Made by a program: the position numbers and the translations under genes
The notes under the pieces: model-generated
Told to the model about the DNA's origin: nothing
The model's database searches: none
Seen by the model: the letters and a program-made list of their open reading frames with translations, nothing else
Part shown: piece after piece, positions 45,072-47,988 of the stretch
Layout: each line of letters starts with the position of its first letter
How positions within the stretch are numbered: position 1 is the first letter of the stretch
NCBI RefSeq assembly: GCF_018122735.1
Contig: NZ_JAGRRD010000001.1
Span: 332,475-396,474, forward strand
DNA length: 64,000 nucleotides
Direction of reading: 5' to 3'
Source of the DNA: Azoarcus sp. L1K30
Lineage (GTDB): Bacteria > Pseudomonadota > Gammaproteobacteria > Burkholderiales > Rhodocyclaceae

Positions 45072-46630
45072 TCAGCCGAAATAGCCTTGCAGATACCAGT
45101 CGCGGGGCGAATCGAGCTTGCGGTATACCCACCACAGTGCGCCGTTGGCGTGACGTGCCAGATAGTAGTCGCGACGCACGTCGTGACCATCCCACCAGCC
45201 TTGTTCGATGCGTTCAGGACCGCGCAGCAGCTTGATCTGGCGCGGATCGTCGATGCGTTGGGGCGCATCGAGCAGCCATAGCGGCCGCTGGGTATCGACC
45301 CGAGCCCTTGCCGATACCCGTGCGGCCTTGTTCGCGGTATTCGGCGCGCTGCCGTGCCAGGCCCGTTCCGGGCGCCAGTCCGGCTTCGGCGCGATCTGTC
45401 TCACGCCATCATCCCCCAGTCTCGCCCGCAGCCGCTCGAGTAGCAGCAAGGCATTCTCGCGTGCGGTCGCCGCGTCGCCGAAGAGGTCATCCGATCTTGC
45501 CGCGAGCGCGCGCGGGGCGTTGGCGATCAGCTCGAGGCCATCGACCGGCGCGGGCAGTTTCAGTGCGGCAAGGCGTTCGCGCGCGAGCAGATTGAATCGG
45601 GCCTCGTCGCGGCTGGGGGTGCCGGTGAGAATGTCGAGGGTCGAGGCCGGACGGCGTTCATGCAGCAGTAGGAGCTGGCAGTGGTCAATGCCGGCATGGC
45701 GGGCGGCAAGCCAGCTCGCCAGCCCGGCAAACAGGCGACGGGCGGCGAACAGCAGCGGTTCGGTGCTGGTGGTCGCGAGCGCAAGGCTGATGTGGCTGCT
45801 GTAGCTGGGCGGCGGGAGGTAGGCTTCACGCAGGTCGTGTTCTTCGCCATAGGCGCGGGCGAGGGCGTCGATGACGGCTGTGGCCTGACGACGGGCGAGT
45901 CCGGCGGCGGGCAGGGCACGGACCTCACCCAGTGTGCGCAGGCCGAGGCCGCTCAACAAGTCGAGCTGGGTCTGGCCGATGTTCCCGCGGTCGGCCAGGG
46001 CGCTCAGCGGCAAGGCATCGAGGCGCTGCTGCCAGGCGGCGGGCGGCTTGGTACAGGCCGCGGCGGGATTGCGCCCCGCTTCGCGCGCAAACCAGCGTGC
46101 GGCCAATGGCGTGGGGGCATCGGCGATGGCGGGGGTGAGACCTTGGCGTTGCAGGCCTTCGAGCAGTGCGTGCCTGAGCGCATCGAGACCGCCGAACAGG
46201 CGCAGGCAGGAGGCGACTTCCAGCACGATGCCGTCGGGCGGGTCGAGACAGACGCGGGCGCTGAAGGCGCCTGCCCAGGCCGCCACATCCTGCAGCAGGG
46301 CGGCTTCCTTGTCGGGTGTGCGTGGCACCAGATTGAGTTCGGGCACCATGGCCAACGCGCTGGTCACGCTTTGTCCGGCCTGTATGCCACGGGCGGCGGC
46401 GGCGGGGGCGACGGCGATGACGTGGGGGCGTATATAGATTGTTTTTCTGAGAGGAGCCGTACACGACAGAGAACCCACGTAGCGTCTCCGTCGGAAGCGT
46501 CAGAAGGGAATAAGAGACAGACGTGGGGGCGGGGGCGGCTTTCGGTGATGGCGATCAGTTCCGGCGCGGCCTGCCCACGCAGGTGAAGCTGCAAGGGTAA
46601 TCCGGGAAAAACCAGTGCCAGCCACAGCAT
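45072..46630 (-). CDS. imuB: ImuB, Y-family polymerase-like SOS protein (frame broken by adapter-like insert)
   Basis: As written the gene is in two frames: 46630-46520 encodes MLWLALVFPGLPLQLHLRGQ and on to SRPRPHV, and 46421-45072 continues from HVIAVAPAAAARGIQAGQSV to the end. Both pieces end or begin at the same PHV. A 101-nt segment (46420-46520) separates them; deleting it leaves 485 codons in one frame with typical ImuB sequence. ImuB lacks polymerase catalytic acidic residues and acts as a scaffold with ImuA and DnaE2 in mutagenic lesion bypass. Residues about 195-230 carry the HhH/little-finger entry (TLGEVRALPAAGLARRQATA). dnaE2 does not follow here; phhB is next and convergent. Confidence 0.85.
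46420..46520. other. 101-nt insert with Nextera/Tn5 adapter-like sequence (likely assembly artefact)
   Basis: The last 33 nt (46488-46520) match the Illumina Nextera read-1 transposase adapter at 28 positions: 12 of 14 in the TCGTCGGCAGCGTC part and 16 of 19 in the mosaic end AGATGTGTATAAGAGACAG. The segment before it (about 46451-46475) weakly resembles the P5 flow-cell arm. A 12-nt genomic word, GACGTGGGGGCG, appears on both sides (46419-46430 and 46520-46531), so removal of 101 nt gives continuous genome and restores imuB. This is best read as uncut adapter in the assembly, not as a biological insertion. Confidence 0.85.
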
Positions 46631-46648
46631 GATGCGCAGCCCGTCCGC

Positions 46649-47278
46649 TCAGAGACTGTCGTCGTGCAGTGACAGCAGCACTGGCGCGTGTGCCAGCGGC
46701 CCCCGGCGCTTGAGCAGATCGATGCGCAGGGCGCCGTGCTGGGGCGACAGGGCCAGCCGTAGCGGAGCCGGCGAGGGCTGGCGTGCGCTGGCGCATGGGC
46801 GGAACAGGAAGAGTGGTGTCGCGCCGGATTCCGCCGCCAGCTGCAAGCGCCGCAGCCCCGCCACGTCGACATGCGGCAGCCACGCCAGCACCATGCTGCA
46901 CGTGGCCGAACCCAGTGCCTGACGCGTGGCCCACAGTGCCTCGTCGGGGGTGGGCGGATTGATCAGCAGCAGGCTTTCCAGATCGACACCTGCGGCCTGC
47001 AGGGCTGGCGCATAGGGGTGTTGTGGTGGGCCGATCCAGACCTGCCAGCGTCCTGCCTCGGCACGCCGCAGCAAGGGTAGCAGCAGCGACAGCTCACCCA
47101 CTCCGGGCTGGTCGACCAGCAGTTCGGTGATGGCCGCACCGGGCCAGCCGCCACCGGGCAACTGCGCATCGAGCGCAGCATGGCCGGTTGGCAGGATGGG
47201 GCCGCCCTGGCCCGCCAGCTGCCGTCCATGCCAGACCAGTCCGGCAGGCAGGGTGGCAAGGGCGGATGCGGCGCTCAT
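46649..47278 (-). CDS. imuA: ImuA, RecA-like SOS accessory protein
   Basis: 209 residues. The ImuA/SulA-like layout is clear: ILPTGHAALDAQLPGGGWPG, AAITELLVDQPGVGELSLLL, WIGPPQHPYAPALQAAGVDL and ATCSMVLAWLPHVDVAGLRR. The RecA-like core has no good Walker A. ImuA works with ImuB and DnaE2 in translesion synthesis. It lies 82 nt after lexA and 18 nt before imuB in one direction. I see no second LexA box in front of it, so it probably depends on the lexA promoter. Confidence 0.9.
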   Translation of the reverse strand: MSAASALATLPAGLVWHGRQLAGQGGPILPTGHAALDAQLPGGGWPGAAITELLVDQPGVGELSLLLPLLRRAEAGRWQVWIGPPQHPYAPALQAAGVDLESLLLINPPTPDEALWATRQALGSATCSMVLAWLPHVDVAGLRRLQLAAESGATPLFLFRPCASARQPSPAPLRLALSPQHGALRIDLLKRRGPLAHAPVLLSLHDDSL

Positions 47279-47360: not shown

Positions 47361-47969
47361 TCAGTGGTCCTTGCGGATCAGGCCGACCATGATGCCTTCG
47401 ATGACGAGATGGTTGCGTTGCGGGTCGACCACGATGGGGGCGAAGTCCGGGTTGGCTGGCAGCAGTTCCACATGGCGGCCCTTGCGCTGCAGGGTCTTGA
47501 CGGTGACTTCGTCATCGATGCGGGCGACCACGATCTGACCATTGCGTGCCTCGCCTGCGCGATGCACGGCGATCAGGTCGCCGTCGAGAATGCCGGCATC
47601 GCGCATGCTCATGCCGCGTACCCGCAGCAGGTAATCCGCGCGCGGGGAAAACAGTGCGGGATCGAGCTGGAAATGCTGCTCGACATGCTCAGCGGCAAGA
47701 ATCGGGCTGCCTGCCGCAACCCTGCCGACCAGCGGCAGGCCCAGCGCCTGGGCCAGTCGGATGCCGCGTGCCCGGCCTTCTTCGAGCAGGATGGCGCCCT
47801 TGGCCGCCAGTGCGCGCAGATGCGACTCTGCTGCATTGGGCGAGCGAAAGCCGAATGCGGTGCATACTTCGAGCCGGGTAGGCGGACGCCCCTCGCTTTC
47901 CACCGTCTGGCGGATGAAGTCGAGGATCTCCTGCTGGCGTGCAGTGAGGTTTTCGCTGCGGGTATTCAT
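47361..47969 (-). CDS. lexA: LexA, SOS repressor
   Basis: 202 residues from the ATG at 47969 (AGGAG 6 nt before); an ATG two codons earlier is too close to that site. The N-terminal winged helix ([40 protein letters not shown]) binds DNA. The self-cleavage site is Ala86-Gly87 ([11 protein letters not shown]), with catalytic Ser121 ([10 protein letters not shown]) and Lys158 ([10 protein letters not shown]). RecA-DNA filaments trigger its self-cleavage on DNA damage. A perfect CTGT-N8-ACAG box lies just upstream, so it represses itself and probably imuA-imuB. Confidence 0.96.
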
Positions 47970-47988
47970 GTCCATCTCCTGATGTCGG

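Follow-up and report, generated by a model that had tools for sequence, protein, structure and literature searches.

Two described systems bear on the interrupted imuB gene of Azoarcus sp. L1K30. In Nextera contamination, the Tn5 mosaic end comes first and is followed by read-1, i5 and P5 in that order. Technical pseudogenes of bacterial assemblies (PMC11017572) are genes that seem to be broken by sequencing or assembly. The stretch of 89 nt that interrupts imuB is almost certainly an untrimmed Illumina Nextera read-through adapter fused into the scaffold, and the break would hence be technical.

The split imuB gene and its intact relatives

The window, i.e., the whole stretch of 64,000 nucleotides analysed here, sits in contig C1 of an assembly of 4,978,121 bases in six contigs. 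On its minus strand, lexA (47361-47975; NCBIfam TIGR00498, 234.5 bits against a cut-off of 110.95, and Pfam) is followed by imuA (46649-47278; NCBIfam NF033429 ImuA, 226.5 bits against a cut-off of 150), which lies upstream of imuB (46630 down to 45072). On the same strand, imuB is present as two pieces: an N-terminal one of 37 codons (46520-46630), starting with the ATG at 46630-46628 and ending in RPHV, and a C-terminal one (45072-46430), opening with a second RPHV and matching Pfam IMS. As neither the C-terminal piece nor the intact congener copy L047 has an NCBIfam match at E<=0.001, the name imuB is based on Pfam IMS and on the position behind imuA.

The two pieces are separated by the foreign insert of 89 nt (46431-46519, minus strand), which would comprise read-through adapter and a low-quality tail. 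On either side of it stands one copy of a 12-nt genomic word, GACGTGGGGGCG (46419-46430 and 46520-46531), forming an exact direct repeat with a spacing of 101 nt, as the sequence-only reading had described. Base 46520 is common to the adapter end and the repeat. A spacing of 101 is not divisible by 3, and the two ImuB pieces are therefore in different frames, in both of which the minus-strand translation of GACGTGGGGGCG is RPHV. The open reading frame that begins with the ATG (46364-46630, minus strand, 88 aa) corresponds to ImuB over its first 37 aa only; beyond 46520, it reaches 46364 only via the insert and out-of-frame sequence. The other one (45072-46478, minus strand, 468 aa), in which Pfam IMS matches at 4.5e-07, has a GTG start inside the insert, which encodes its residues 1-16. 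The start of this call at 46478 is false.

With the ImuB of L019 (record titled Azoarcus sp. MAG) as the query, all four congeners searched gave a single unbroken match, from residue 1 to 485 or from 2 to 484. The query evidently comes from one of them, G003, whose match is 100% identical to it, and this leaves three independent congeners. The strain's own genome gave two pieces, 1-45 and 34-485. At the family level, ImuB matches at E<=1e-10 were obtained in 27 of 41 genomes (40 drawn from the family, and L1K30) and none in the other 14; among the 26 other matching family genomes, 18 have a single unbroken match (start at residue 1-2, end at 484-485), and eight have partial or multiple ones, with pieces on different contigs in three.

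One explanation of the break is that a true frameshift or deletion is hidden by the adapter and that imuB is really defective, and the assembly is indeed unreliable for the bases at the junction. Against this, the window's two ImuB pieces, aligned as separate rows, tile the congeners gap-free over 485 columns, with no residue missing or extra, RPHV at both boundaries and an overlap of RPHV only, and a hidden mutation thus appears very improbable. In the earlier statement that deletion of 101 nt joins the two frames without losing a residue, the residues at the boundary were given as PHV instead of RPHV.

ImuB generally has DnaE2 as its partner. A DnaE2-type polymerase is encoded outside the window, at C1:597036-600212 (NF004225, 1421.9 bits, cut-off 939; this model matches 13 of 14 control genomes, above the cut-off in two). 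Its gene is located about 218 kb from imuB and is not adjacent to it.

Adapter features of the insert

The match to the Nextera read-1 adapter, which lies on the minus strand as the reverse complement, occupies 46488-46520. Compared on the plus strand with the read-1 oligo, these positions agree at 28 of 33, which is the figure given by the sequence-only reading, and the best sites of 200 shuffled windows (approximately dinucleotide-preserving) reach 20.3 on average and 23 at most. No second scar was found in the window, where the next read-1 match is 19/33 and the read-2 oligo does not exceed 20/34. Within the same stretch, the 19-bp Tn5 mosaic end (46502-46520, minus strand, 3 mismatches) is the sole match at <=3 mismatches in the window, and none was obtained in 100 shuffles.

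The similarity extends beyond the mosaic end and read-1 sequence. When the first 75 nt of the insert are globally aligned with the P5-side Nextera adapter, the score is 28.0; none of 1000 shuffles exceeds 9.5. An origin from the P7 side was also considered and rejected, the P7 arm scoring 9.5 (with a maximum of 12.0 in its own shuffles) against 28.0 for P5. In the i5 index slot (46480-46487, minus strand), S503 is the best of 18 Nextera i5 indices compared, with 6 of 8 positions; when the slot was tried at three offsets, this 6/8 was reached at the expected one and the two others gave at most 4/8.

Over the 49 outermost bases of the insert, the fit to the adapter's P5 end is weak. Past the index, 46451-46479 (minus strand) is probably the P5 flow-cell end, badly read: it agrees in register at 14 of 29 positions, a weak match that was equalled by 290 of 20000 shuffles. 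The gapped score, 7.0, is also weak, being attained in 35 plain and 171 dinucleotide shuffles (5000 of each kind), and the controls score 6.0 (reversed) and 6.5 (P7 tail). Over the full P5-side arm, 48 of 70 positions match in register. Further on, a tail of 20 nt containing AAAAA (46431-46450, minus strand) is what reads running past the end of the molecule would give.

Further scars in the assembly and search of relatives

An assembly-wide search for the mosaic end, which had been suggested at four mismatches, was run with at most three. It gave six places, including the imuB scar, and none with the reversed-pattern control. The expectation of similar scars elsewhere was thus borne out, by four strong and one weak further matches. 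Among the four strong sister scars, three adjoin N gaps, one of these being of P7 type, and one is without N. The scar at C1:3094839-3094891 (L005; P5 arm 92%) adjoins 100 N and contains an exact S503, as does the scar at C1:3925368-3925421 (L001; P5 arm 87%), which has an AAAA run further on and no N within 3 kb. The scar at C1:3934281-3934309 (L002; P5 arm 90%) also adjoins 100 N, and the P7-arm scar at C1:4585408-4585475 (L006; query 3-69 of 71, 76%) ends in GAAA at 10 N. The weak one, at C1:2972087-2972105 (L004; E=0.047), has an alignment score of 9.5 against a shuffle maximum of 7.0 and no N within 3 kb. The 64-kb window contains no N, and the imuB scar adjoins none; a further 100-N scaffold gap is found a few hundred bases ahead of the window start (at 1773-1872 of L018, around C1:332103-332116).

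When the genome was searched with the P5 arm, four places were obtained at E<=3.0e-4, among them the imuB scar. Furthermore, the 11-mer CTGTCTCTTAT has three exact occurrences in the genome, all of them inside scars. A lower P5-arm match, L011, corresponds once more to the weak scar L004. Of the other lower P5-arm matches, of 14-19 nt (L012-L018), the three that were inspected, L012, L013 and L014, are ordinary-looking genome. Of the lower P7-arm matches (L001 and L021-L025), L022 and L001 belong to the scars described above, and L021, the one inspected among the other four, is ordinary-looking. We also considered whether high local GC causes the contig breaks: in stretches that include the scar bases themselves, local GC is above the 3-kb GC in five of the six scars, the imuB scar being the exception (0.62 vs 0.68), and we draw no conclusion from this.

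Several frames lie next to the sister scars. L001 (from 1501 of C1:3923868-3926886) is at the edge of a minus-strand frame (362-1507) with a Pro/Ala-rich region, which reads like an alpha-type carbonic anhydrase, a name taken from the translation alone. At L004 (C1:2970587-2973605, from 1501), the frame switches within a TIR-domain-like protein, and L006 (C1:4583906-4586924, 1501-1580) is inside an HTH/RodZ-type-like frame, both named by reading. Gene calls adjacent to L005 (C1:3093374-3096392) and L002 (C1:3932791-3935809) may be wrongly truncated or extended.

A real small insertion, either a MITE or an IS4/IS50-type remnant, that disrupted imuB with a 12-bp target duplication has to be weighed against these results. 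One end of the insert is Tn5-type-like, and the direct repeat on both flanks fits a target-site duplication, but an overlap of contigs accounts for this repeat equally well. Moreover, no inverted repeat is found in 46300-46650 (0 pairs; seed 8, minimum 10), the match runs beyond the mosaic end into synthetic read-1 sequence and i5 index, and the three sister scars at N gaps, one of them with a P7 arm, are not what such an insertion would produce. In addition, a search of 60 relatives with the P5 arm returned nothing at E<=0.01. Taken together, these points make a real insertion highly unlikely. As for the repeat, L001 has no flanking direct repeat of at least 9 nt and L004 has one of 10 nt, at a distance; with nothing comparable at these two other N-free scars, the 12-nt repeat is not general to scars.

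The insert could otherwise be a real short element resembling a Tn5 end, of which this strain would carry copies in several genes; we give this hardly any credence. The 89-nt insert is absent from all four congeners. The P7 arm matches one of the 60 relatives (G017, 26 nt, 92%, E 4.5e-4), in a sequence without mosaic end that was judged, on reading, to be ordinary or chance sequence and was rejected as adapter.

Origin of the scar and comparison with known systems

An adapter read-through could have produced the scar as follows. A short tagmented fragment would have ended within imuB, and a minus-strand read would have passed from genomic DNA into the mosaic end and on through the read-1 site and i5 index as far as the P5 end. 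Past the P5 end, it would have given noise with a short A run, the quality dropping along the read. The untrimmed reads would then have lengthened one contig, with which the neighbouring contig had only 12 nt in common, and a scaffolding or gap-closing step would have abutted the contigs without merging their shared bases. Such an end-to-end join would leave the 12-nt word twice, copy 1 at 46419-46430 being, as we infer, the contig overlap.

The view that imuB is split by an adapter artefact, already put forward in the sequence-only reading, is supported by the sister scars and by the unbroken ImuB of the congeners. Our verdict is that the break almost certainly reflects no mutation, no mobile element and no SOS defect, and no statement on SOS mutagenesis should be drawn from it. 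This guards against wrongly reporting that an SOS mutagenesis gene of the strain is broken, and it marks five further sites of the assembly at which gene calls beside scars are suspect. It also indicates that a misread adapter can persist in an assembly listed at completeness 100 and contamination 0.05.

When set beside the technical pseudogenes of bacterial assemblies (PMC11017572), the imuB case is one in which the cause is adapter sequence. With respect to Nextera contamination, the index common to other scars and the sister scars located at scaffold gaps are as expected. Over the full arm, about one base in three differs from the Nextera sequence, and this may be why screening missed the adapter. 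The parts of the insert nevertheless follow one another in the order of the Nextera arm.
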